The position numbers and the translations under genes are program-made. Below, piece by piece: positions 1-12,674 of a DNA stretch of 64,000 nucleotides. The notes beneath the pieces were generated by a model. The model did not search any database. It was not told where the DNA came from and worked only from the letters and a program-made list of their open reading frames with translations. Origin of the DNA: Lewinella sp. LCG006 (lineage in GTDB: Bacteria > Bacteroidota > Bacteroidia > Chitinophagales > Saprospiraceae); NCBI RefSeq assembly GCF_040784935.1, contig NZ_CP160680.1, positions 4,755,802-4,819,801 on the forward strand, in the 5' to 3' direction. Every line of letters starts with the position of its first letter. Within the stretch, counting starts at the first letter, position 1.

Positions 1-3000
1 TGGATACCATCACAATTGAGATCAAGCCATACGCGATTACCTACTTCAGCCAGACAGTCTTCTGTAATGGTGAACTGGGTAATGACCGTAGCCTCACACT
101 CTTCTGGATCAAGTGGGATCAATGTAGCTACCAACTCGTAGCTTCCTGCATTCAGAGCGATTGGATCAATCGTCGTACTGATTACACCATTAATGGTGAA
201 GATCATATTCCCTGGAATATTAGGATTTGCACCTAATTCAATCGGAGCATCAGACAAACAAAGGGTTGTTGGTGGCAGCTCATTAATGTTGAGTGTTGGG
301 TACTCGCAAGTATTGGTGATCGATAAGGTGTCAAAGTTATTCGTTGTTACCACAGAATAAGTGATCTCGTCGACCAACCGGAAGGTGAACTCGTAAACAC
401 CAGGTTCTACCTCGGTCATCACCTGTGGGTAGGTGATGTGTACTGGATCTACTGGTGGTTCTCCGTTAATAGCTTCGTACATCCCGGTACCATCAATAAT
501 GGTCCAGGTTTCATTGGGATAACTGTATACGGTGAAGGTCTCCGTAAACTGACCATTGTCTTCCGTCGTTGAATTGTTCAAACAAGTACAAGGGTCACCA
601 ATCACACCATTGGGTGGTACGTAGATACCGCCATCAACAGTAAGGTCTATCTCACCTGGATCAAGGACATAGATGCCCGTCATACCGTTCATACCAGGTA
701 CAATGTCACTGTCTAGTGCATCATCTCCCTGGTTAGAGGCAGTATAGTCGAAACCGTCAGGGATAACAAACTGAATAGAATAGCTTCCAGGATCAAGACC
801 GAGGAAGTAGTATTCCCCATCGTCATTGGTAACCGTAGTGGCAATAACCACACCGTTAACATCTTTGAGGTTGACGGTTACACCAGAGATAGCAGGTTCA
901 TTATCGTCTTGCTGACCATCGTGATCGATGTCTTCCCACACGTAGTTTCCGATACCTGAAAGTGCTTCCAGGGTAGCAGAACAAGTAGTCTGACAGCCGT
1001 TAGTATCCGTTACCGTTACGGTATAAGTACCAGGGGCAAGGTCGGTAATAGTTGCAGTATTAGCACCATTGCTCCAGCTGTAGCTGAAAGGAGCCGTGCC
1101 GCTGGTAACGTTTACCATCAGGATACCATTGTTGCCGAGCGTAGAAGGTTGTACTTCTGTTACGGAACATGATGGTGCTGGGAAAGTTGTTACGGCAGCG
1201 AAAGCCGTTTGTACACAACCATTGGCATCGGTAACAGTCACGCCGTAGGTGCCAGGGGCAAGATTGGAGACGGTAGCAGTAGTAGCACCATTGCTCCAAA
1301 TATAGGAATAAGCAGGTGTGCCACCAGAAACATTCGCTACCAGAATTCCCTGGTTGACGTTGCTACAAGTACCACTGTTTTGGGTCACGTTTACCACCAA
1401 AGGCGTTGGTTCGGTGATTGTGATCATATTGGTCGCTTGGCAACCCTTGCTATCCGTAACGGTCACGGTGTAGACACCACCAGATAAACCATTGATGGTT
1501 TGGCTTACTTGCCCGTTGCTCCAAGCGTAGATGAATGGAGGAGTACCACCACTAGGAGTTACGGTTGCACTACCATCGGCATCGCCACCACAATCAAGGT
1601 TCACACCGTTGAGGTTGGCAACCAAAAGGGCAGGCTGTGTAATCACCACACTGGCGGTAGCAAAACACTCGTTGGCATCAATAACGGTCACAGAATAGGT
1701 ACCTGGAGCCAAGCCTGTAATCATTTGCGTTATACCTCCATTGCTCCAGTTGTAAGCAAAAGGAGCTTGACCGCCATTGGTAACTACATTTGCCGTACCA
1801 TCATTGGCACCAAAGCAGGTAACCATAGTGCCTGGAGCACCAGCTGTAAAGCCAGCTGTTTGAGTGATTTCAGCACTACGTACGGCCTGACAACCACTGG
1901 CGTCGGTGACGGTCACGGTATAAACACCTGCTGTCAGGTTGGTGATGGTAGGACCACTCTGGCCATTGCTCCAACTAAAGGTATAAGGAGCAGTGCCGTT
2001 GGTGGCGCTTGCGGTAATAGCTCCAACTGGAGCCGTAGTACATTCCAGGTTGGTTACGTTGAAGTCTATATTGATAGCAGGTAGTTCGTTTACGACAATA
2101 GCTGACACGACGGCTGAACAACCGTTGGCGTCCGTTACCGTAACGCTGTAAGTGCCCGCCGCTAAATTGACTGCGGCTTGGGTCGTCTGACCATCGCTCC
2201 ACAGGTAGGTATACATGCCCGTGCCACCGGTTACGATCGCAGTAGCGGTACCCGTAGCCGTACCACCACAAGTGATGGTAGGAGCAGTAACATTAACATT
2301 CAATGCTGGAGGATCACTAAGGGTGACACTGGCCGTTGTAGTACAGAGGTTGGCATCCGTTACGGTTACGGTATATGTTCCTGCTCCCAAACCATTGATG
2401 GTATTGGAAATGGCGCCATTGCTCCAGCTGTATTGGTAAGGTCCAGTACCGCCATTAGGTGTAACAGTGGCAGAACCGTTGGTGTCGCCAGGACAAGCAG
2501 GGTTGTTGCCGTTGGCTACTGCGGTAAGCAATTGAGGTTGGCCTACGGTAACATTGGTTTCTACGACACAGCCATTGGCTTCCGTCACGGTCACGCTGTA
2601 GGTGCCAGCGGTTAAGCCAGTGATTTCGTTCGTCATTTGTCCGTTGCTCCACAAATAAGAGTAGGGCATGGTGCCACCAGAGGCGATTGCCAAAACACTG
2701 CCGTTGTTATCTCCGAAGCAGAGTGCATCGCGTGGAATCAAGTTGACGGCAAAGTCGCTAATCACGTTGATCGTGATGCTTTCCGTACCTGTACAGCCAT
2801 TGGCGTCGGTGACGGTTACAGAATAAGTGCCACTAACCAGGTTGGAGACACTTTCAGTTGTCGCGCCAGTACTCCAATTGTAGACAAATGGACCAACTCC
2901 ACCAATAACGATGGTGCCTGCGAAACCAGAATCTTCCGTGCCACACACAATGGTCTCACCAGTGATGACAACATCAATTTCTTGAGCCTGTGAAACAGTA

Positions 3001-5324
3001 AAGCTAGCTACCGCCTCACATTCATTAACATCTGTGGCCGTTACGGTATAGACTCCGGCTGGAAGTCCGGTGATGGTTGCGCCCGTTTGACCATTGCTCC
3101 AAGCGTAGCTGTAGCCAGGTGTACCACCACTTGCCGTAGCAGTAAGCGTAGCATCGGCAGCACCAAAACAGTTCACTGGGTTAGTCGCCTGAATACTTAC
3201 TTGTAAAGCCGGAGGAGCTGTAACGGTGAAGGAATTTTGTGCTGTACACCCGTTGGCGTCAGTGATAACTACCGTATATACACCCACCGCAAGACCATTG
3301 ATGGTCTGTGTGTTGGCACCATTGCTCCAGGCAAAAGAATAAGGTGCATTGCCCCCACTTGGGAAGGCCGTAGCTGATCCAGTATTCTCACCTGCACAAA
3401 GTAGGCCTGATCCGTTGGTGGTTACAATAAGATCATCAATAATATTGATGAAAATAGATTGGGTAGCAGAACATCCATTGTCATCCGTTACGGTGACGGT
3501 ATAAGTACCTTCAACCAGTCCGCTGATGCCGGCAGAAGTTGCGCCAGTATTCCAGAGGAAAGAAAAAGGAGGGGTACCACTAGTAGGAGTTGCAGATGCT
3601 GAGCCAGTGTTACCTACTCCACATACGGTGTTGGTTCCTGTCAAAGTAAAGGTAACACCTGGTGATTGTTGGATGGTAATTGACGCAATATCATTACAAC
3701 CGTTGGCATCGGTGACGATGACAGAATAGTTGCCAGCACTTAGACCACTAATCGTTTGTCCACTGGCGCCGTTGCTCCAGTTAAAGGTGAATGGTGCTGT
3801 TCCTCCAGTTACCACAGCAGTAGCTGTGCCAGCGGTACTGCCTGGACATAAAATAGGCGTGCCTGTGATACTCACAAATACATCAGGAGGAGCTACCAAG
3901 GTAGTACTTGCAGAGGTCAGACAGCCGTTGCCATTGGTTACGGTTACGGAATAAGTGCCTGGTGCCAGGTTGTTGATCGTTTGGGTTGTTGCTCCTGTAT
4001 TCCAGCTAAAGCTGAAAGGACCAACTCCCTGGGTAATGATCGCTGTCGCAGAACCGTTGCTGGCACCACAGGTGCTGGGGTTGCTTCCTGCAGCAACTAC
4101 GGTAAAGGCTGGTGCTGCGGGTACATTCACAATGGTAGTCGCTACACAGCCAGCGGCATCCGTGACGGTGATACCGTAATTGCCGGGTGCTGCATTGGTA
4201 ACGACTTGTTGGGTAACACCATTACTCCATTGATAGGAGTAAGGCATTACACCTCCCTGAGGGTTGGCAGTAGCAAAACCATTATTTGCACCGGGGCAGG
4301 TTTCTGGAGTGCCCAGGCCTCCCAAAGTGAGGTTCGAATTATTGGCTAAAGTAATACTTGCAGTTTGTACACAACCATTGTTGTCTACAACGGTGAGTAC
4401 ATAGGTGCCAGCACTTAAGTTGAAAATATTGGGTGTGTTGGCACCCGTATTCCAAGAAAGGCTATATGGTGGTGTGCCACCAGAAATAGTGGAGAAAACA
4501 CTACCATTGGTATCCCCTATACAGTTGGGATTATTACCATTCAGATTGATTACGATAGGAGGAGGCTGGCTTACAAAACCAGTTGCGCTATCCGTACAGC
4601 CATTGGCATCGGTAAGCGTAACGGTGTAAGTTCCAGCGGTTAAGCCAAAGATGGTTTGCCCACTAGCACCATTGCTCCAAGCGTAGGTGTAAGGAGGTTG
4701 CCCACTGGAGGGAAAAGCGGTAAGGCTTCCATTACTACCACCCGGGCAAGTCACACTTCCAGTGTTGACACTTACGGATGGGGGATTGACATTAACGGTA
4801 ATACAAGTGACGGGGCCACATAAGTGGCTATCAACAATGGTTACACAATATTGGCCACTGGTAACGTTGGTGATGGTTTGGGTCATGGCTCCGTTACTCC
4901 AGTTGTAAGAGTAGGGCGGAACCCCACCCATGGGGTTTGCGGTAATTGTAAATGGGTCACTACATACATCGTCTGCCGTAAGGGTAGCGGTGACTTGAGT
5001 AGGTTGATTTACAACGACACTACTGGTGGTGGTTTGGGCAGCCGCATCAGTGACGGTTACAAAATAAGTACCTGCTGCGAGGCCGGTAATTGTTGCGCCA
5101 GTTTGTCCATTACTCCATTGGTAAGCATAAGCGGGTACTCCACCGCTGGCAGTTGCAGTAACGCTGCCGTTAGGCAGCCCAAAGCAATAGGCGTCGGTGA
5201 CGGAAAAAGATACTTGCAGTTGTGCGTGCAGGGATATACTCCCCCCCAGGCAAAGCGCTAGTAGAAGCATCCAAGTAGGCAGTAAGCTTGAAAAAGCTTG
5301 TTTCCAGGGTAGCTGTTTTGTCAT
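1..5324 (-). CDS. SprB-repeat giant adhesin-like secreted protein, partial (3' end outside window)
   Basis: The frame is open from the ATG at 5324 to the left edge, giving at least 1774 codons. The N-terminus (MTKQLPWKQAF, then a hydrophobic stretch ending SISLHAQ) is a Sec signal peptide. About 19 repeats of 75 residues follow, each with a PYxYxWSNG motif, then GLxAGTYTVTVTDANGC. This is the SprB repeat known from the Flavobacterium gliding adhesin SprB. Near 600-960 the repeats give way to an SdrD-B/Cna-B-like domain (GNYVWEDIDHDGQQD), and a second one starts at the left edge (EVGNRVWLDLNCDG). Such proteins are exported by T9SS and serve in surface attachment or gliding. The expected C-terminal sorting domain lies outside the window. 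A purely structural or biofilm role is also possible. The family call is firm; the function is inferred. Confidence 0.9.
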   Translation of the reverse strand, partial: MTKQLPWKQAFSSLLPTWMLLLALCLGGSISLHAQLQVSFSVTDAYCFGLPNGSVTATASGGVPAYAYQWSNGQTGATITGLAAGTYFVTVTDAAAQTTTSSVVVNQPTQVTATLTADDVCSDPFTITANPMGGVPPYSYNWSNGAMTQTITNVTSGQYCVTIVDSHLCGPVTCITVNVNPPSVSVNTGSVTCPGGSNGSLTAFPSSGQPPYTYAWSNGASGQTIFGLTAGTYTVTLTDANGCTDSATGFVSQPPPIVINLNGNNPNCIGDTNGSVFSTISGGTPPYSLSWNTGANTPNIFNLSAGTYVLTVVDNNGCVQTASITLANNSNLTLGGLGTPETCPGANNGFATANPQGGVMPYSYQWSNGVTQQVVTNAAPGNYGITVTDAAGCVATTIVNVPAAPAFTVVAAGSNPSTCGASNGSATAIITQGVGPFSFSWNTGATTQTINNLAPGTYSVTVTNGNGCLTSASTTLVAPPDVFVSITGTPILCPGSTAGTATAVVTGGTAPFTFNWSNGASGQTISGLSAGNYSVIVTDANGCNDIASITIQQSPGVTFTLTGTNTVCGVGNTGSASATPTSGTPPFSFLWNTGATSAGISGLVEGTYTVTVTDDNGCSATQSIFINIIDDLIVTTNGSGLLCAGENTGSATAFPSGGNAPYSFAWSNGANTQTINGLAVGVYTVVITDANGCTAQNSFTVTAPPALQVSIQATNPVNCFGAADATLTATASGGTPGYSYAWSNGQTGATITGLPAGVYTVTATDVNECEAVASFTVSQAQEIDVVITGETIVCGTEDSGFAGTIVIGGVGPFVYNWSTGATTESVSNLVSGTYSVTVTDANGCTGTESITINVISDFAVNLIPRDALCFGDNNGSVLAIASGGTMPYSYLWSNGQMTNEITGLTAGTYSVTVTEANGCVVETNVTVGQPQLLTAVANGNNPACPGDTNGSATVTPNGGTGPYQYSWSNGAISNTINGLGAGTYTVTVTDANLCTTTASVTLSDPPALNVNVTAPTITCGGTATGTATAIVTGGTGMYTYLWSDGQTTQAAVNLAAGTYSVTVTDANGCSAVVSAIVVNELPAINIDFNVTNLECTTAPVGAITASATNGTAPYTFSWSNGQSGPTITNLTAGVYTVTVTDASGCQAVRSAEITQTAGFTAGAPGTMVTCFGANDGTANVVTNGGQAPFAYNWSNGGITQMITGLAPGTYSVTVIDANECFATASVVITQPALLVANLNGVNLDCGGDADGSATVTPSGGTPPFIYAWSNGQVSQTINGLSGGVYTVTVTDSKGCQATNMITITEPTPLVVNVTQNSGTCSNVNQGILVANVSGGTPAYSYIWSNGATTATVSNLAPGTYGVTVTDANGCVQTAFAAVTTFPAPSCSVTEVQPSTLGNNGILMVNVTSGTAPFSYSWSNGANTATITDLAPGTYTVTVTDTNGCQTTCSATLEALSGIGNYVWEDIDHDGQQDDNEPAISGVTVNLKDVNGVVIATTVTNDDGEYYFLGLDPGSYSIQFVIPDGFDYTASNQGDDALDSDIVPGMNGMTGIYVLDPGEIDLTVDGGIYVPPNGVIGDPCTCLNNSTTEDNGQFTETFTVYSYPNETWTIIDGTGMYEAINGEPPVDPVHITYPQVMTEVEPGVYEFTFRLVDEITYSVVTTNNFDTLSITNTCEYPTLNINELPPTTLCLSDAPIELGANPNIPGNMIFTINGVISTTIDPIALNAGSYELVATLIPLDPEECEATVITQFTITEDCLAEVGNRVWLDLNCDGI
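1000..5215 (-). repeat. Tandem array of about 19 SprB-type repeats, period about 225 bp
   Basis: The segment encoding WSNG recurs on the minus strand near 1063, 1288, 1513, 1738, 1963, 2190, 2411, 2641, 2866, 3091, 3316, 3541, 3766, 3992, 4210, 4441, 4668, 4888 and 5107. Spacing is 225 bp or very close to it, so the frame is kept. Units are clearly diverged in nucleotide sequence. This suggests an old array under protein-level selection rather than a recent expansion. Confidence 0.9.
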
Positions 5325-6303: not shown

Positions 6304-7428
6304 TCAGAATGGATTTTGGAAGCGAGGATTGTTCACAAAAGAGGTATCGGTAAGGGTGTGTAAAAATGCGATTAATGCTTCTTTTTCTTCTTGGGTTAAG
6401 TCAAAAGGTCGGATGTTGGGATCTTCGTTTTCAACGCCATGTCCTCCCTGAGCATAATTATCTAAAACTTGTTCAAGGGTTTCAAAACGACCATCGTGCA
6501 TATAGGGAGCTGTAAGTGCAATATTTCTTAAGGATGGTGTTCGGAAAGTCCCATTGTCAAAAAAGACGCCATTAATAGCACCTCTTCCTAGGTCTGAAAA
6601 ATCTGCCAGAGAAGCCACATTGTCCAAGCCGTTGTTATGGAACTTATTATCGGTAAAGTTTGGCCCACTGTGGCAATGGGTACACCCGGGGTGCTCAAGG
6701 GTAATAGCTGTTTCGACCTCGAAAAGCTCCAGGCCTAGTTGTTCCTGCTCTGTAAATTCCTGCGAAAGGTCATTGAACCATATTACTTTGTCGTATTTGC
6801 TATTGCCACTGATCAGTGTACGCTCAAATTGAGCAATGGCCTTTACCGCTAGGTCTCTAGTAATTTCGGAGGTGCGATCAATGCCAAAAGCTGCCCGAAA
6901 CAAGGCTGGATAATCATTGTGACGGCGTAATTTTGTTTCAACATTTTCCCAACTGTCATTTAACTCATCATGAGCTTCGATGGGGAGAAAAGCCTGATCT
7001 TCCAGGCTATTAGCTCTACCGTCCCAAAAGAAGTCTTTCTCCATAAATACCATATTGACCAATGACATAGCACTACGTTGGGTAGGAATACCCAAAATAC
7101 CGACACTTTTATCCAACCCATCCGTAAAACTTTGTTCTGGAAAATGGCAGCTAAAACAGCTCATGGTACTATCCGCAGAAAGGATGGGATCAAAAAACAA
7201 CATTCTTCCGAGCAGGATACCTTGCTCCGTCATTGGGTTGTCAGCCGGAAGGTTGGGTTGTCCTAGAAAGGATGGAAATTCCAGGGTATAGGGAGTAGGA
7301 ACGTTAGGCCCAGTAATGAGTTCGTCGGGGCAGTTGTCACAACTTGGCATTTCATCATCATCACAAGCTAAAAAAGTAAAGCAAGCAAGGCAGGCAGCTA
7401 GAAATAGAAGTTTAGTGTAAGTCTTCAT
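6304..7428 (-). CDS. MauG/cytochrome c peroxidase-type di-heme lipoprotein (copy A)
   Basis: This 374-residue protein has a type II signal peptide with Cys22 (TFLACDDD), so it is probably a lipoprotein facing the periplasm. Two c-type heme sites are visible: CFSCH (91-95) and CTHCH (249-253). The conserved family segment APYMHDGRF (307-315) follows; its Met is a candidate axial ligand. Length and order fit bacterial di-heme cytochrome c peroxidases and MauG/MbnH enzymes. Those use H2O2 either simply to be reduced or to oxidise a residue in a partner protein. The next gene upstream is a second di-heme enzyme 7 bp away, then an MbnP-family gene. That context favours a protein-modifying role over plain peroxide removal, which is an inference. 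Confidence 0.88.
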   Translation of the reverse strand: MKTYTKLLFLAACLACFTFLACDDDEMPSCDNCPDELITGPNVPTPYTLEFPSFLGQPNLPADNPMTEQGILLGRMLFFDPILSADSTMSCFSCHFPEQSFTDGLDKSVGILGIPTQRSAMSLVNMVFMEKDFFWDGRANSLEDQAFLPIEAHDELNDSWENVETKLRRHNDYPALFRAAFGIDRTSEITRDLAVKAIAQFERTLISGNSKYDKVIWFNDLSQEFTEQEQLGLELFEVETAITLEHPGCTHCHSGPNFTDNKFHNNGLDNVASLADFSDLGRGAINGVFFDNGTFRTPSLRNIALTAPYMHDGRFETLEQVLDNYAQGGHGVENEDPNIRPFDLTQEEKEALIAFLHTLTDTSFVNNPRFQNPF

Positions 7429-7435
7429 TTTGGGC

Positions 7436-8488
7436 TTAATTTTTAATCGGATAATACGATTGATTGCTTAATGCGGCGGAGTCGGTTAAAGTTTGTAAAA
7501 ATGCAATTAAATCTTGCTGATCTTTCTCACTAAGGTGCAATGGTCTGACATTAGGATCAACATTTTCAGCATAATGCCCTCCTGAGTTGTAGTGTTGAAC
7601 CACTTCTTCGATAGTTTTAAAACGACCATCGTGCATATAAGGAGCGGTGAGGAGAATATTCCTCAAAGTTGGTACCCGGAATTTGCCATTGTCATATTTG
7701 TTGCCACTAATTTGCCCGAGTCCCTGGTCTGGGAATTCATCAAGTGAAGAAATTTCATCTAATCCATTGTTGGAGAAGTCAAGATTAGTGAACAGTGGAT
7801 CGGTATGGCAGTGACTACACTCCGCCATGGGGGTAGCAGGATAGCCAGCGTCGAAAAAGATGGTCCAACCACGCTTTTCTTGCGGTGTAAATTGGGCTTC
7901 CCCCCGTTGTACTTGATCGAATTTACTGTTGGCACTCACCAGCGTGCGTTGGAATTGTGCAAGTGCCTTAGCTGTCGATTCCTGATCAATAGATAGACCG
8001 GGGAAAGCTTCGTGGAAAAGCCGTGGGTATTCCGGATGCTGACGAAGTCGTGCTTGGATAAGATCCCAATGATTACCCATCTCCAGGCTATCGCCAAGCG
8101 GGTGAAGAGCTTGTTCTTCCAGGCTTGGGCTACGTCCGTCCCAGAAAACACCTTTGTAATGAAATCCAATATTGAGCAGGCTGGGAGCCGAGCGCTGGCC
8201 CATTCTTCCGGCAATACCTCTACTTACCGCTCCACCATCGGTGAAAGCCAACGCAGGCTGGTGGCAGCTGGAACAACTAATAGTACTGTCCAGCGATAGC
8301 ACAGGATCGAAAAAAAGCGCCCTGCCTAAAGCTACTCCTTCGTAAGTGAGTGGGTTGTCTTCCGGGATTTGCATTTTCACGAAACCCTCAGGTTCAGGTA
8401 TGGGGTAAGGAGGGGTAGGGGTTTTATCACAAGAGGTAAAAAGGCTGATCACTAAGAAGGCTAACAGGAACACGCTATTTGAAATCAT
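7436..8488 (-). CDS. MauG/cytochrome c peroxidase-type di-heme lipoprotein (copy B)
   Basis: The start is placed at the ATG at 8488, which opens a clear lipoprotein signal (MISNSVFLLAFLVISLFTSC, lipid Cys20). The frame stays open upstream to 8848, but that extension reads like translated intergenic DNA and overlies several stem-loops. The 350-residue product has heme motifs CSSCH (72-76) and CSHCH (224-228), and the family segment LTAPYMHDGRFKT. It is a paralogue of the adjacent copy A, 7 bp downstream, and the two are probably co-transcribed. An MbnP-family gene lies upstream in the same direction. A role in oxidising a residue in that partner is suggested by context and not shown by the sequence. 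Confidence 0.87.
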   Translation of the reverse strand: MISNSVFLLAFLVISLFTSCDKTPTPPYPIPEPEGFVKMQIPEDNPLTYEGVALGRALFFDPVLSLDSTISCSSCHQPALAFTDGGAVSRGIAGRMGQRSAPSLLNIGFHYKGVFWDGRSPSLEEQALHPLGDSLEMGNHWDLIQARLRQHPEYPRLFHEAFPGLSIDQESTAKALAQFQRTLVSANSKFDQVQRGEAQFTPQEKRGWTIFFDAGYPATPMAECSHCHTDPLFTNLDFSNNGLDEISSLDEFPDQGLGQISGNKYDNGKFRVPTLRNILLTAPYMHDGRFKTIEEVVQHYNSGGHYAENVDPNVRPLHLSEKDQQDLIAFLQTLTDSAALSNQSYYPIKN

Positions 8489-8860
8489 CAACGGAAATAA
8501 GCGGTTGTTAAGAAGGGAGCGATTCTTGATGTTTAAACTCCCAAGCCGATAATGTGGGGTATGTTGGTGTGCACTTGGTTCAGGGGAGGTAGGAGAGGAG
8601 AGGGTACAGGACCCGCTTGTGGGAGGGTCCCACCCAGCTGACCGGACCGCCAAAACTGCTCCTTCTGCATCCTTGGCAAAAGGGCAGGCGTCATCATCTG
8701 CTCTGTTAACCAGAGCAGCCAAACAATACGCTAAAAAAACACCGCTGAATGCTCCTCTGACAAGAGGAGGTAATTGCCTATGAGGGTGCTGGTAGTTTGT
8801 CAGGCTACCAGCGGAGCGCAAACTTAATACTTTTTTGTTTTTATTCAAAATAAAATAAAA
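8489..8860 (-). other. 372-bp structured intergenic segment inside the MauG/MbnP cluster
   Basis: No credible gene is seen. At least three perfect stem-loops are packed here: CTGCTCTG/CAGAGCAG (8698-8718), CTCCTCT/AGAGGAG (8752-8769) and GCTGGTAG/CTACCAGC (8788-8812). A GGACCC/GGGTCC pair lies near 8610-8630. The segment is more GC-rich than its flanks. Any transcript from the MbnP gene into copy B must cross it, so it may act as a processing or attenuation region, or be a repeat insertion. Confidence 0.5.
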
Positions 8861-9622
8861 TTAATTATTTATTTCGAAGGCGTTACTCAAGTTTTCCCAC
8901 AGCCAACCATAGATGGCAACATTATTGGTGTGGTCTTGCGTGTTTTCTTGGATGTTGATATCCAGGTAGTTACCATCACGTGACAAAATATCGTATAAGT
9001 CTACGGTGAAGGTCATACTAGCAGGGTTGTCTTTTTGGATGATCAAGGGCTTGTTCATCGTCAATGTAGTGAACAATTCATCTTTGCCGATGTGATAGGT
9101 GAGTGGATCGGAAAACTGACCGTCACCATCAAGGTCGGCACGAGCTTCCACTTTAGCAAACACATAGCCTCGGGCCCACGACCAAAAATTCTGGCTCAAT
9201 GGATGACCAGCGGCATAATCACCCGGTTGGGTGGCGTTCAATTCTCCGGTAAGTCCCAGCCCGATTTTTATGCCTGTATATACACCTGGTTCCAGATCGG
9301 TGAAGCTGAGTTTTACGCCTTGTTCAGCAGTAGCCACGTCATAGAAATCTTCGTAGTTGATGAGTTCAACTTCTGATACCAGTTGGCCTTCTGTACTGCC
9401 CTCTTTGATCAAGGTAATGTCGGATACGTAATAGTTGAAAAGCTGGAACTTCAGAGGACTACCATCCGGATAATTATACACCTGATCGAACATCACCAGT
9501 GGTGCATCTTGATAAGTAGCTTTAAAAGTTAAGTCTAGGTTTCCGCGACCTTCCTCGCTGTCCGGGTCGCAGGCAGAAAAAATGAAAGTGGCAGAAAGTA
9601 GCAATAAGAATAATGGACGCAT
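8861..9622 (-). CDS. MbnP-family lipoprotein (putative copper-binding), Trp-containing form
   Basis: The start is chosen at the ATG at 9622 because it opens the lipoprotein signal MRPLFLLLLSATFIFSAC (lipid Cys18). The 253-residue product has the MbnP-family pattern: a beta-rich N-terminal half (FQLFNYYVSDITLI, 59-72), then FWSWARGYVFAKVEA (146-160), and a His-containing segment (LTYHIGKDE). In the methanobactin operon, MbnP binds copper after MbnH, a MauG-type di-heme enzyme, converts a Trp to kynurenine. Here two MauG-type genes follow directly downstream. Trp147 and Trp149 are candidate target residues, but this assignment is inference. An alternative upstream start at 9649 lacks support. 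Confidence 0.8.
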   Translation of the reverse strand: MRPLFLLLLSATFIFSACDPDSEEGRGNLDLTFKATYQDAPLVMFDQVYNYPDGSPLKFQLFNYYVSDITLIKEGSTEGQLVSEVELINYEDFYDVATAEQGVKLSFTDLEPGVYTGIKIGLGLTGELNATQPGDYAAGHPLSQNFWSWARGYVFAKVEARADLDGDGQFSDPLTYHIGKDELFTTLTMNKPLIIQKDNPASMTFTVDLYDILSRDGNYLDINIQENTQDHTNNVAIYGWLWENLSNAFEINN

Positions 9623-9650
9623 GGTAGTGGTTTTGAGGGAATGATACAAC

Positions 9651-9812
9651 TAGAGTTGTTCTGCTGGGGGCTGTTTTAGCGAAAGCGCTAAAATTTTATT
9701 CTGAACGAGGCAGATTTTGCAGCCGAATGCGGGCAATTCGGCGAAAAATCTAACGAAGTTCAGGATGAAATTTTTCGCTTGCAGCAAAACTTGTCCCAGC
9801 AGAACAACTCTA
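9651..9812. repeat. 162-bp foldback element between the two MbnP-family genes
   Basis: TAGAGTTGTTCTGCTGGG (9651-9668) is perfectly inverted at 9795-9812. Further inverted segments lie inside, including CTGAAC near 9700 and GTTCAG near 9759, and a TTTTAGCG-AAA-GCGCTAAAA hairpin near 9673. A small minus-strand reading frame crosses it, but shows no protein-like features. It looks like a MITE or palindromic repeat rather than a gene. Confidence 0.7.
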
Positions 9813-9885
9813 TGATAGAGAAATGACGTCTTTGCTGTCTTTCTCCATGATATATAACAAATAGAGCCCACCAAAGTTAAGCTGG

Positions 9886-10740
9886 TTATTGTGCCAAAAC
9901 CTGTGTTAACTGAAAGGATTGTGTAAGGTTATCGACAAATTGATTCTTTAAGGCAGTAGTATCTGTTTGCCGAACATCGATGCCTGAAAACCAGCGGGAG
10001 ATATCGTTTTCAATAACCAACACCGGATTAAAGCCTTCAATAAAAGTGGTGGGTACAGGTAGATCTAGCTGAAGCTCCCTGATGAAATCGCTGCCATAAA
10101 TATTGATGATCCTCGGAACGGTGTCGATCGCCGTAGTGTCCTGAAAATACTCAATCTTGGCAAAGATGTAGCCGGTGGCAGCACCAAGGTTCATCTGTCC
10201 GGTTTTAGGTGCTAGAGGGTGGCTGTTGGAAACGGAGGTCGTAACCGCTTTGTTGACCGGGTCCTTGATGCCAAAGGTGGCTTTCAAGCTGGCAAGTTCT
10301 CCACTGGGTGCTAAAGTTTTGAGCGTAACACTGCGCGTCGCGCGATCAATATCAGCAAATAAATAATCATCCCTTACCGTAATCATACTGGTATCGGTTC
10401 CGTTGGCAATGCTTAGATCAAGGGAGTCTGTAATGGTAAGTGTTTCGCCATTACTCAGTTGGAGCTCCAAATCAGACCAGTAAAAACGAATGCGTTGAAT
10501 ACGGAAAGGGTGATTATTGGCATCTATATAAAAGGTGTCCAGTCGTAAGGAAACCATCTCGTCGGGATAAGTCCAGGTATTGTCGAAACGAATGCTTAAT
10601 TTGGGGAAAGTGCAACAATCGGGGCAAGCTTCATCGGCATCCAGGTCAAAATTCGTTGCACGCGTGTCCAGACAGCCAGGGGTCGGTTCATAGCAGCCGG
10701 AAATACAAAGCACCACCAAAAGAAAGAGAACGATCCGCAT
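9886..10740 (-). CDS. MbnP-family lipoprotein, form without the Trp pair
   Basis: The start is the ATG at 10740; the two preceding codons (TTG CTC) are less likely. The product has 284 residues, with lipobox LCISGC (Cys16), then a Cys-rich stretch GCLDTRATNFDLDADEACPDCC (23-43). This stretch resembles the C-x-D-x-x-A-x-N-Y motif common in secreted Bacteroidota proteins. The MbnP-type core follows: FRIQRIRFYWSDLEL, then GAATGYIFAKIEYF where the sister protein has FWSWARGYVFAKVEA. The Trp pair is missing. It probably shares the copper/redox setting of its neighbours. Whether it can still be modified is open. It lies 9 bp after the exonuclease gene, so the two could be co-transcribed. Confidence 0.72.
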   Translation of the reverse strand: MRIVLFLLVVLCISGCYEPTPGCLDTRATNFDLDADEACPDCCTFPKLSIRFDNTWTYPDEMVSLRLDTFYIDANNHPFRIQRIRFYWSDLELQLSNGETLTITDSLDLSIANGTDTSMITVRDDYLFADIDRATRSVTLKTLAPSGELASLKATFGIKDPVNKAVTTSVSNSHPLAPKTGQMNLGAATGYIFAKIEYFQDTTAIDTVPRIINIYGSDFIRELQLDLPVPTTFIEGFNPVLVIENDISRWFSGIDVRQTDTTALKNQFVDNLTQSFQLTQVLAQ

Positions 10741-10749
10741 GAGCAAGGC

Positions 10750-11562
10750 TTATTTTTGCTGCGTTTCCCGCATGATTTTTTTGACAATTTGCTTTACCTG
10801 ACTGGAAAACTCTTTGTTGACGATCCAGTTGTAGTAGTTTTTATCCTTTCTTAAGACGTCGGCTACTGCCTGGCCGTTGTATTTGCCAAAAGCAAAAACA
10901 ATATTTCCGTGCTGGTCATATTTCATCTTTTGGGTAGCATCTACAAAGCGGGTGTCATTAGTAAAGTCGTGGAGTAACTTAATGTCTGGCTGGATGGCAT
11001 TGGGCGTAACTTGGCCGTCTCCGTCTACGTAGTCTTTACCTTTATACATGTCTAGTTGACCCATAAAGACATCAATGGTTGCCTTCACATCAGCCATGGC
11101 GTCATGAGCGTTTTCAATTTCTTTTTGGCAATAAAAACGCAAGGCAGCAGAGAGTGTCCGCGGCTCCATTTTATAGAAAATTCGCTGCACATCAATCAAG
11201 CGCCGATTATCGATGTTGAACTCCAAACCAGCACGGTCAAACTCCTCCATGAGCATTGGAACATCAAAACGGTTGGAGTTGTAACCCGCTAAATCTGCAT
11301 CACCAATGAAATCAAAAATTTCCTGTGCGATCTGAGCAAAGAGTGGTTTGCGCGCCACATCCTTGGGTGTGATACCATGAATGCTCATGGCCTCTTCTGA
11401 AATGGGAATTCCAGGGTTGACCAAATAGGTTTTCTCCTCAGGAGATTTTCCTTTGGCGGAATATTTGATGAGTGCTATCTGTATAATCCGGTCGCGGATA
11501 ACGTGTAGACCAGTAGACTCAATGTCAAAAAAAACAAGGTCTTTGCTAAGTTGTAAATCCAT
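10750..11562 (-). CDS. DEDDh 3'-5' exonuclease (DnaQ/ExoX-like)
   Basis: The start is placed at the ATG at 11562 (MDLQLSKDLVFFDIESTG), which puts the ExoI motif DIE at residues 13-15. The ExoII region (GYNSNRFDVPML) and the ExoIII motif HDAMADV (His and Asp) complete a DEDDh active site for removal of 3'-terminal nucleotides. The C-terminal part (FAFGKYNGQAVADVL, NYYNWIV) matches the small domain found after the exonuclease fold in ExoX-like proteins. The 270-residue length is normal for stand-alone proofreading or repair exonucleases. The exact substrate cannot be read from the sequence. A further upstream start at 11610 would only add a non-conserved tail. Confidence 0.9.
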   Translation of the reverse strand: MDLQLSKDLVFFDIESTGLHVIRDRIIQIALIKYSAKGKSPEEKTYLVNPGIPISEEAMSIHGITPKDVARKPLFAQIAQEIFDFIGDADLAGYNSNRFDVPMLMEEFDRAGLEFNIDNRRLIDVQRIFYKMEPRTLSAALRFYCQKEIENAHDAMADVKATIDVFMGQLDMYKGKDYVDGDGQVTPNAIQPDIKLLHDFTNDTRFVDATQKMKYDQHGNIVFAFGKYNGQAVADVLRKDKNYYNWIVNKEFSSQVKQIVKKIMRETQQK

Positions 11563-11615
11563 GTAAGGGCTCGATTTCGGGCAAAGGTAGACAAACAATC
11601 GCGAAAGCAAGCATC

Positions 11616-12674
11616 TTAGTCAGCCAGTAGTACCGCAAAACCTTTGGTAGCTTTACTGCGCAACTGTCCTTCGTCGTCGCTGTAGATGAAATAGCCTTCC
11701 AGGCCCGCTTGCGCTTCTATCAAAGCATAGGCTTTATCCAGCCCCAGTACCATACAGGCCGTAGCAAATCCGTCAGCAGTTGCGCAATCGTCAGCCAAAA
11801 TAGAGGCACTCAATAGGTTGCTCCTTTCCGGATAACCGGTGAAGGGATTGATGGTGTGACTGAATTTTTGTCCCTTTACCTCGTAATAATTTCGATAATT
11901 ACCTGAAGTCGCCACCGCTTTATCGACTAATGGGATAGCCACCTGTAGGTCATTAGGGGAGGCGTCTTCCTTTGGTACGGCAATGCCCACCCGCCAGGGT
12001 TGATCACTCGCGCCTTTGTTGCCCGCAGCTACTACTTCGCCACCAATATCCACAAAATAATTACGGATGCCGCGTTGACGCAGATAAGCAGCAACTAAGT
12101 CCACACCATAACCTTTGGCGATGGCCGAAAAATCTAGTTGGGTGCCCGCAAAGGCTTTATCCAATTGAATAGCAGAAGGGGAGTGGATGACAGAGTCGTA
12201 GTCAATCTTATCCAGCCCCACAAAGGTCATTAAGGAGTCAACAGTGGCACTGTCCACCGCCGTTACCGGATGTTTGGGAGTATATCCAAAGCCCCAATAA
12301 TTGACCAGGGGCATGATCGTAGGATTGAAATTGCCTCCGGTAATTTGCGCAATCTTTAGCGACAACTTCAGATTGGCTAGGAAATGAGGTGCTGCTTGCA
12401 AGGTCTCCGCTTCAATCGCGGGCAAATCACCGTGGTTGAAACGAGAAATGAGTGCTTCAGGAATGTAGGTGGAGACCTCCAGGTTGAGCGCCACCAGTAG
12501 AGAGTCCACACTCGTTTTTAAGTTAGTAATCTCTTCGCCGAGGTAGCTCACCTTATAATAGGTGCCCATGGTTTCACCTTGGATATGTTGCACCTTCGTC
12601 TCCGATAGGTTTTTATGTCGGCAGCCCGCTAGCAGCAGCAGGCTCAAAAAAAGCGTGTAAAAATTAGTTTTCAT
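11616..12674 (-). CDS. apbE: FAD:protein FMN transferase (ApbE), lipoprotein
   Basis: The 352-residue protein has an SPII signal (LFLSLLLLAGC, Cys18). ApbE family marks follow in order: GETMGTYYKVSY; DFSAIAKGYGVD with the Asp/Lys region for FAD binding; NYFVDIGGEVVAAG; TSGNYRNYYE; SHTINPFTGYP; and ADDCATADGFATACMVLG. ApbE moves FMN from FAD onto Thr/Ser of flavoproteins such as Na+-NQR and RNF subunits, on the periplasmic side with Mg2+. No such target is in the window. It sits between the DEDDh exonuclease and DoxX genes on the same strand, with gaps of 53 bp and 25 bp. Length is typical. Confidence 0.94.
   Translation of the reverse strand: MKTNFYTLFLSLLLLAGCRHKNLSETKVQHIQGETMGTYYKVSYLGEEITNLKTSVDSLLVALNLEVSTYIPEALISRFNHGDLPAIEAETLQAAPHFLANLKLSLKIAQITGGNFNPTIMPLVNYWGFGYTPKHPVTAVDSATVDSLMTFVGLDKIDYDSVIHSPSAIQLDKAFAGTQLDFSAIAKGYGVDLVAAYLRQRGIRNYFVDIGGEVVAAGNKGASDQPWRVGIAVPKEDASPNDLQVAIPLVDKAVATSGNYRNYYEVKGQKFSHTINPFTGYPERSNLLSASILADDCATADGFATACMVLGLDKAYALIEAQAGLEGYFIYSDDEGQLRSKATKGFAVLLAD

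Follow-up and report, generated by a model that had tools for sequence, protein, structure and literature searches.

An MbnP/MbnH-type gene cluster with a putative unmodified MbnP-fold partner in Lewinella sp. LCG006 and its family

The window analyzed here is a whole stretch of 64,000 nucleotides (nt) from Lewinella sp. LCG006 (contig NZ_CP160680.1, positions 4,755,802 to 4,819,801), and our subject is a cluster of four minus-strand genes that together span window positions 6304-10740. In minus-strand order these are P2, P1, H2, and H1, that is, two small MbnP-fold lipoproteins followed by two MauG/MbnH-like di-heme enzymes. In this bacterial family, an unmodified partner appears to have been added to the MbnP/MbnH copper-maturation pair. 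P1 reads best as a copper protein of the kynurenine type whose maturation would be carried out by H1, H2, or both, and P2 as an MbnP-fold partner that would stay unmodified. Taken as a whole, the reading of the locus as a maturation cluster of the MbnP/MbnH type to which a site-less partner has been added is, in our judgment, evenly poised between right and wrong.

P1 (8861..9622, minus strand; 253 aa) is an MbnP-family lipoprotein with a WxW motif, and P2 (9886..10740, minus strand; 284 aa) is an MbnP-fold lipoprotein. The profile search proposed in an earlier note on this DNA placed both in the Pfam MbnP family (PF20243; 90.9 bits for P1 and 65.7 bits for P2, cut-off 27). The top-ranked NCBIfam model was TIGR04052 ("MbnP family copper-binding protein") for P1 (30.4 bits, below the equivalog cut-off of 140) and also for P2 (13.1 bits, below the cut-off). 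The AlphaFold2 (AF2) models of P1 and P2 (predicted local distance difference test score, pLDDT, 85.6 and 87.8) had 7l6g as their best Foldseek match (E = 4.6e-8 and 2.6e-8, respectively), and the six chains of 7l6g were the sole Protein Data Bank (PDB) matches of either model at E ≤ 0.001. The TM-scores to 7l6g, taken by query length, were modest (0.51-0.52 for P1, 0.40-0.46 for P2) and thus indicate a shared fold with no close likeness. 7l6g is the MbnP of Methylosinus trichosporium, whose first WxW Trp becomes kynurenine, as Manesis et al. (2021) reportedly found. A profile of P1 and canonical MbnP proteins found 7l6g by sequence as well (E = 3.8e-5). In this alignment the P1 Trp (NFWSWARG; codon at 9182..9184, minus strand) was paired with the leading W of the 7l6g motif MAWNW, and a P1 His (YHIG; 9092..9094, minus strand) with the His of VHVG. 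This conserved Trp, the first W of WSW, is the proposed kynurenine precursor, and that His and a second, C-terminal one (QDHT; 8930..8932, minus strand) are candidate metal ligands.

Conservation was followed in the window and 120 further stretches (L042 from the same genome; L043-L160 and L014 from other genomes), all from the window's family except L059, which comes from another family of the same order. Proteins were labeled P1, P2, or canonical MbnP by their best score against profiles built on our first sorting of the MbnP proteins. The site Trp was kept in 83 of 87 P1 proteins and 18 of 19 canonical MbnP proteins, compared with 13 of 100 P2 proteins. The first His was kept in 82/87 P1, 18/19 canonical MbnP, and 1/100 P2, and the second His in 77/87 P1, 13/19 canonical MbnP, and 0/100 P2 (99 of which were gapped at this position). 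When the P2 of the window was aligned with its MbnP relatives, neither the WxW Trp nor either conserved His was found. The earlier view of two MbnP-type proteins as equivalent substrates therefore did not survive for P2.

The three residues behaved in P1 as one joint site predicts, namely in a near all-or-none manner. After nine of the 87 P1 proteins had been set aside as truncated loci, all three residues were present in 71 of the 78 untruncated P1 proteins and none in four, and the last His alone was missing in three. An enzyme gene lay directly downstream of 69 of these 78. Loss of any of the three residues was more frequent in P1 proteins without an adjacent enzyme (3/9) than in those with one (4/69; Fisher test, P = 0.03), and the same was true when P1 and canonical MbnP were pooled (6/12 compared with 5/80; P = 0.0004); for loss of the Trp only, the pooled values were 3/12 and 2/80 (P = 0.015). 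These tests were not corrected for kinship, and two of the genomes counted as having no enzyme (G049 and G149) carry one elsewhere.

Whether enzyme number and the second Trp go together was also considered, and co-evolution of the two is not claimed. The Trp at +3 was scored in 70 rows: absent with two enzymes in 32, present with one in 31, present with two in seven, and absent with one in none. On the P1 tree, which left out three of the 87 P1 proteins, the pattern amounted to three and five changes, with two independent pairs on starred branches and five on all branches, a pattern that shared descent can account for.

P2 is a maintained gene with no sign of decay. Its N-terminal Cys module, GCLDTRATNFDLDADEACPDCCTFP (10603..10677, minus strand), contains four Cys besides the lipid Cys, and in the alignment these were present in 99, 90, 90, and 99 of the 100 P2 proteins. 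Between the P2 of the window and same-genus relatives, the synonymous divergence (dS) was at or near saturation, and the nonsynonymous divergence (dN) was 0.14-0.34, as under purifying selection; the single pair with a finite dS gave a dN/dS of 0.07, dS being mostly saturated in the other pairs. The P2 proteins formed one clade (support 99) in a mixed MbnP tree built from random subsets of 33 of the 87 P1 and 33 of the 100 P2 proteins together with 18 of the 19 canonical ones. The site columns were excluded from this tree and from the P1 tree, long N-terminal ends were trimmed before the P1 and enzyme trees, and all trees were made by a quick method. Among 296 genomes drawn across the phylum, 14 matched the P2 profile. 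Six of them, all from the family, matched from position 3-8, and in the eight others, which scored no more than 110.6 bits, the match began at position 55 or beyond and therefore did not include the Cys module. A role of P2 as a substrate was considered and judged unlikely: the site residues are absent, and 12 of the 100 P2 proteins are entirely free of Trp. Of these Trp-free proteins, two are encoded next to an enzyme gene at loci where no P1 is visible (L149, and L153, which is cut at the locus end).

H2 (7436..8488, minus strand) is the enzyme proximal to P1 and H1 (6304..7428, minus strand) the distal one. Each contains two CxxCH motifs and matched CCP_MauG (179.8 bits for H1 and 191.8 bits for H2; cut-off 25.6), in agreement with the earlier description of four one-strand genes, two of them for di-heme proteins. 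The top-ranked NCBIfam model was "MbnH family di-heme enzyme" (TIGR04039) for both, at 280.4 bits (H1) and 249.2 bits (H2), short of the hypothetical-equivalog cut-off of 362.85; among 150 genomes of the family this cut-off was passed in one, through neighboring copies in one frame. The closest solved relative of H1 was 6e1c, "Di-heme enzyme" (E = 3.8e-49), which we take to be MbnH, with peroxidases and MauG ranking behind. When H1 is aligned with the peroxidase 4aal, a Tyr takes the place of the Met that serves 4aal as an axial heme ligand, and Tyr was the consensus there in every enzyme group examined. By their CxxCH motifs and this Tyr, H1 and H2 are to be classed as MauG/MbnH-like.

Relatives of the enzymes were gathered by blastp from H1 and later by profile, and 136 were kept for a tree after those cut by locus ends or shorter than 290 aa had been left out. 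All 39 distal enzymes fell in a group of 40 that had a single one-enzyme member (support 86, unstarred), and all 39 proximal enzymes fell in a group of 76 together with 31 of the 33 enzymes from one-enzyme P1 clusters (support 85, unstarred). H1 of the window belonged to a starred clade of 30 distal enzymes (support 98), and H2 to a starred clade of 30 proximal enzymes (support 99). On this tree H1 and H2 are old, separate lineages, which rules out that they are recent duplicates; the word "duplicated" in the earlier note is thus misleading for the enzymes. Because the two types have long been kept side by side, they likely have different jobs. Two genomes in which P2-P1 has no adjacent enzyme carry a distal-type enzyme, by best blastp matches, elsewhere, beside ApbE-like and exonuclease-like genes (L170, 3580-6764; L171, 1571-4683); this is a hint that the ApbE link may matter.

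The order of the genes was largely fixed. The 100 P2 loci were picked for holding P2, so that the counts are conditional on it, and contig ends shorten some of them; the orders found were P2-P1-H-H (38), P2-P1-H (32), P2 alone (13), P2-P1 (9), and P2-H (5), with one each of P2-C-H, P2-P1-P1-H, and P2-H-C-H, where C is a canonical MbnP. P1 followed P2 in 80 of the 100. Of 150 genomes of the family, 148 contained MbnP-profile matches and 149 MbnH-family matches; P2-profile matches were present in 147, at a loose threshold that also counts other MbnP proteins.

We propose that P1 is exported as a lipoprotein and that a MauG/MbnH-type enzyme, most likely the proximal H2, would oxidize the first WxW Trp of P1 to kynurenine. 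H2 is favored because one-enzyme clusters draw 31 of their 33 enzymes from its side of the tree. The kynurenine and the two co-conserved His residues would then form a mononuclear copper site. P2 shares the fold but not the site and would therefore be no substrate of Trp oxidation; it probably works next to P1 without being modified, as a partner or scaffold, by way of its fold and its Cys-rich N terminus. The distal H1 probably has a separate, long-kept job, either on P1 or on another exported protein. The copper and Trp-oxidation pairing of enzyme and substrate suggested in the earlier note is supported for P1, with its MbnP fold, aligned Trp, joint Trp/His/His site, and adjoining MbnH-type enzymes, and is not supported for P2, in which the site is absent. 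What the analysis established is the anatomy of the locus: the families and folds, the conservation, the missing site of P2, the joint loss of the three residues in P1, the gene order, and the old split between the enzymes. Kynurenine, copper, the pairing of P1 with P2, and the division of labor are inferred.

Several observations weigh against a maturation cluster of this kind. P1, P2, H1, and H2 all scored under the curated NCBIfam cut-offs. The Met that lies two residues before the Trp in 17 of 19 canonical MbnP proteins, a possible Cu ligand, was present in only one of the 87 P1 proteins; the other 86 have Asn (as in the window), His, Glu, or other residues. The P1 site must therefore differ from that of the M. 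trichosporium protein. Four P1 proteins lack all three site residues, and two of these (L118 and L116) still adjoin one or two enzymes. Loss of the Trp only, counted within P1, was 2/9 without and 2/69 with an adjacent enzyme (Fisher test, P = 0.06). Five loci have P2 and an enzyme without P1, and 13 have P2 alone within the fetched stretch; those five loci, and the two site-less P1 proteins that adjoin enzymes, weigh most. No copper gene known to us was present among the named conserved neighbors of the P2 loci. In addition, the site contrast between P1 and P2 is built in partly by the labeling, though gene place and the Cys module back it. The site-less P1 genes are those of L116, L118, L142, and L115, the last of which also has a normal P1 and an enzyme after its site-less copy; the four proteins are natural test cases for the role of the site and of the enzymes.

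Of the alternatives to a maturation cluster with a site-less partner, the least improbable, which we nevertheless consider unlikely, is that P1 binds copper without Trp oxidation, at a plain two-His site, and that the enzyme only keeps the copper reduced or oxidized. The shifted site chemistry that follows from the loss of the Met before WxW in 86 of 87 P1 proteins would suit this explanation, as would the variable second Trp, but the first Trp is kept as strictly as the His residues and is lost with them, which is hard to explain by packing alone. We give less credence to the possibility that H1 and H2 simply remove H2O2 as ordinary di-heme cytochrome c peroxidases and that their closeness to P1 and P2 is historical. 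CCP_MauG is indeed the main Pfam match of both, and there are loci in which enzymes adjoin P2 without P1 (five) or a site-less P1 (two). However, the peroxidase Met is replaced by Tyr, the best PDB relative of H1, 6e1c, is no peroxidase, and an enzyme gene lies directly downstream of 69 of 78 untruncated P1 genes.

It is more doubtful again that the enzymes oxidize another exported protein, such as the SprB-repeat protein encoded downstream, with P1 and P2 guiding or inhibiting them. A SprB-like gene followed 18 of 34 two-enzyme loci and none of 28 one-enzyme loci (those with at least 1.5 kb in view, the window not counted), and the open part of the SprB copy in the window has 24 Trp residues. 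Against this, the SprB gene starts approximately 1 kb away, its Trp residues look like ordinary constituents of the repeats, and the pattern may track one clade, as enzyme number does, and so be explained by shared descent. We regard as least probable of all, and very improbable in itself, an arrangement in which each of the two enzymes has an MbnP substrate of its own and both pairs make kynurenine copper sites. Both small proteins do match Pfam MbnP, the genes adjoin, and in 13 of 100 P2 proteins a Trp occupies the aligned position, whereas the P2 of the window has lost the site Trp and both His residues, the first His occurs in one and the second in none of 100 P2 proteins, and 12 have no Trp of any kind.

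An extension of the preferred reading, in which the locus is an MbnP/MbnH-type maturation cluster with a site-less partner, is itself unlikely, although we place it above each of the four alternatives. The products might form a two-component, perhaps surface-exposed copper complex consisting of a modified P1 and a dedicated, unmodifiable twin, P2, which would have arisen once in the family by loss of the Trp and both His residues with retention of the four-Cys module. Two specialized MauG-type enzymes would serve it, one making kynurenine and the other either catalyzing a further oxidation or acting on a different protein. If so, MbnP would be the founder of substrate/pseudo-substrate pairs. 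If the maturation-cluster reading is true, Trp-to-kynurenine copper sites would be near-universal in a family that, to our knowledge, is not known for methane oxidizers. The P1/P2 contrast is also a natural control, with one fold in one gene cluster and the site present in one protein and erased in the other.

The open reading frame (ORF) called for H2 has 470 aa and extends to 8848, but its N-terminal part was rejected as an interspersed repeat and the ATG at 8488 was adopted as the start; the ORF appears to be 120 aa too long because the repeat, at 8500-8850 between P1 and H2, is read through. The genome has 10 more partial matches to this repeat (71-86% identity). Between P2 and P1 there is an inverted repeat (9651-9812) with 45-nt arms that are 76% complementary and spaced by 72 nt. 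Lipobox-like N termini were picked by script for H1 and P1 and by eye for P2 (ISGC|YEP) and for H2 read from 8488 (LFTSC|DKT), where the script had failed (P2) or chosen wrongly (H2), so that the earlier expectation of four lipoprotein-like N termini was borne out. In P1 (CDPDSEE) and H1 (CDDDE), the lipid Cys is followed by acidic residues that resemble Bacteroidota surface-export signals. The script examined 87 P1, 98 P2, 39 distal, and 39 proximal proteins. Among those given a lipobox, at least two acids at +2 to +6 were found in 50/72 P1, 55/78 P2, 24/36 distal, and 4/26 proximal proteins, counts that include some wrongly chosen lipoboxes and follow a consensus from other genera (PMC5080379). 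Surface exposure of P1, P2, and the distal enzyme is thus possible, and the periplasmic placement assumed in the earlier note is not established.

Neighbors were named from the Pfam matches of the window members and by likeness, and the short flanks of some loci lower the counts of all upstream genes. Just upstream of P2 in the window lies a gene for an RNase T/ExoX-like exonuclease (10750..11610, minus strand; Pfam), and an exonuclease-like gene occupied the same place in 74 of the 100 P2 loci. The next gene is of the ApbE family (11616..12674, minus strand; Pfam, 257.8 bits); ApbE-like genes were found in 61 loci and, in 59 of these, stood as the second gene upstream. DoxX (27/100) and TerC (21/100) genes also occurred upstream. 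Approximately 1 kb downstream of H1 is the giant SprB-repeat protein (3..5324, minus strand), which has 18 SprB stretches and runs off the window.

The earlier suggestion of a system without methanobactin genes was partly borne out: no MbnB-family gene adjoins the cluster, and the sole PF05114 match of the genome lies approximately 2 Mb away; the search covered MbnB only, among the methanobactin genes. This MbnB/TglH/ChrH-family gene (366 bits) is accompanied by a DUF2063 gene, a small Cys-rich ORF of 213 aa that matched nothing in Pfam, and a ferritin-like gene (all within L169, 2459-6421, at approximately 6.833-6.837 Mb of contig G000:C1). By its gene content it looks like a cluster for a metal-binding ribosomally synthesized and post-translationally modified peptide (RiPP), presumably of the bufferin kind.

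The same genome contains a second cluster with one canonical MbnP and two MbnH-type enzymes (L042, 6338-9565; G000:C1, approximately 3.604-3.608 Mb), in the order P-H-H. It resembles the cluster of the window in these genes; it differs in the canonical MHWGW motif of its MbnP, which ends in a sorting tail for type IX secretion, and in its enzymes, which belong to other lineages. No P2 was recognized in the 16 kb fetched around it.

With MauG and methylamine dehydrogenase, the window enzymes share the two-heme class and, in H1, Tyr at the peroxidase Met position; MauG has a Tyr heme ligand. They differ in scoring far below the 443.85 cut-off of TIGR03791 (203.4 bits for H1 and 194.9 bits for H2), and the neighborhood of the cluster showed no evident methylamine dehydrogenase gene, although no search was aimed at one. 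In CorA/CorB and MopE/SACCP of methanotrophs, as here, a di-heme enzyme gene lies next to the gene of another protein; the copper sites of CorA and MopE consist of two His residues, water, and kynurenine (PMC3912023). CorA uses Kyn-x-His (Kyn62, H64, H114; PMC3912023), unlike P1, in which none of the 87 proteins has His two residues after the Trp. CorA was not named among the matches listed for P1 (Foldseek, best 50 of 342; profile search against PDB).

The closest comparison is the MbnP/MbnH pair, in which MbnH turns the first WxW Trp into kynurenine and MbnP binds Cu(I). P1 shares the MbnP fold, the aligned first WxW Trp and HxG His, and an adjoining MauG-like enzyme. The window cluster differs in that P1 has no Met before WxW, an extra site-less MbnP lies upstream, two long-diverged enzymes are often present, and the proteins fall under the TIGR04052 and TIGR04039 cut-offs. 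No title on a tandem site-less MbnP was among the matches listed in the open-access literature; subscription papers, including the key MbnP paper, lay outside that scope, so that absence from print is not shown. Kenney and Rosenzweig (2013) describe the pair as conserved far beyond methanobactin producers (PMC3621798). MbnP/MbnH pairs outside methanobactin producers are thus already known, and the new part is the site-less partner.

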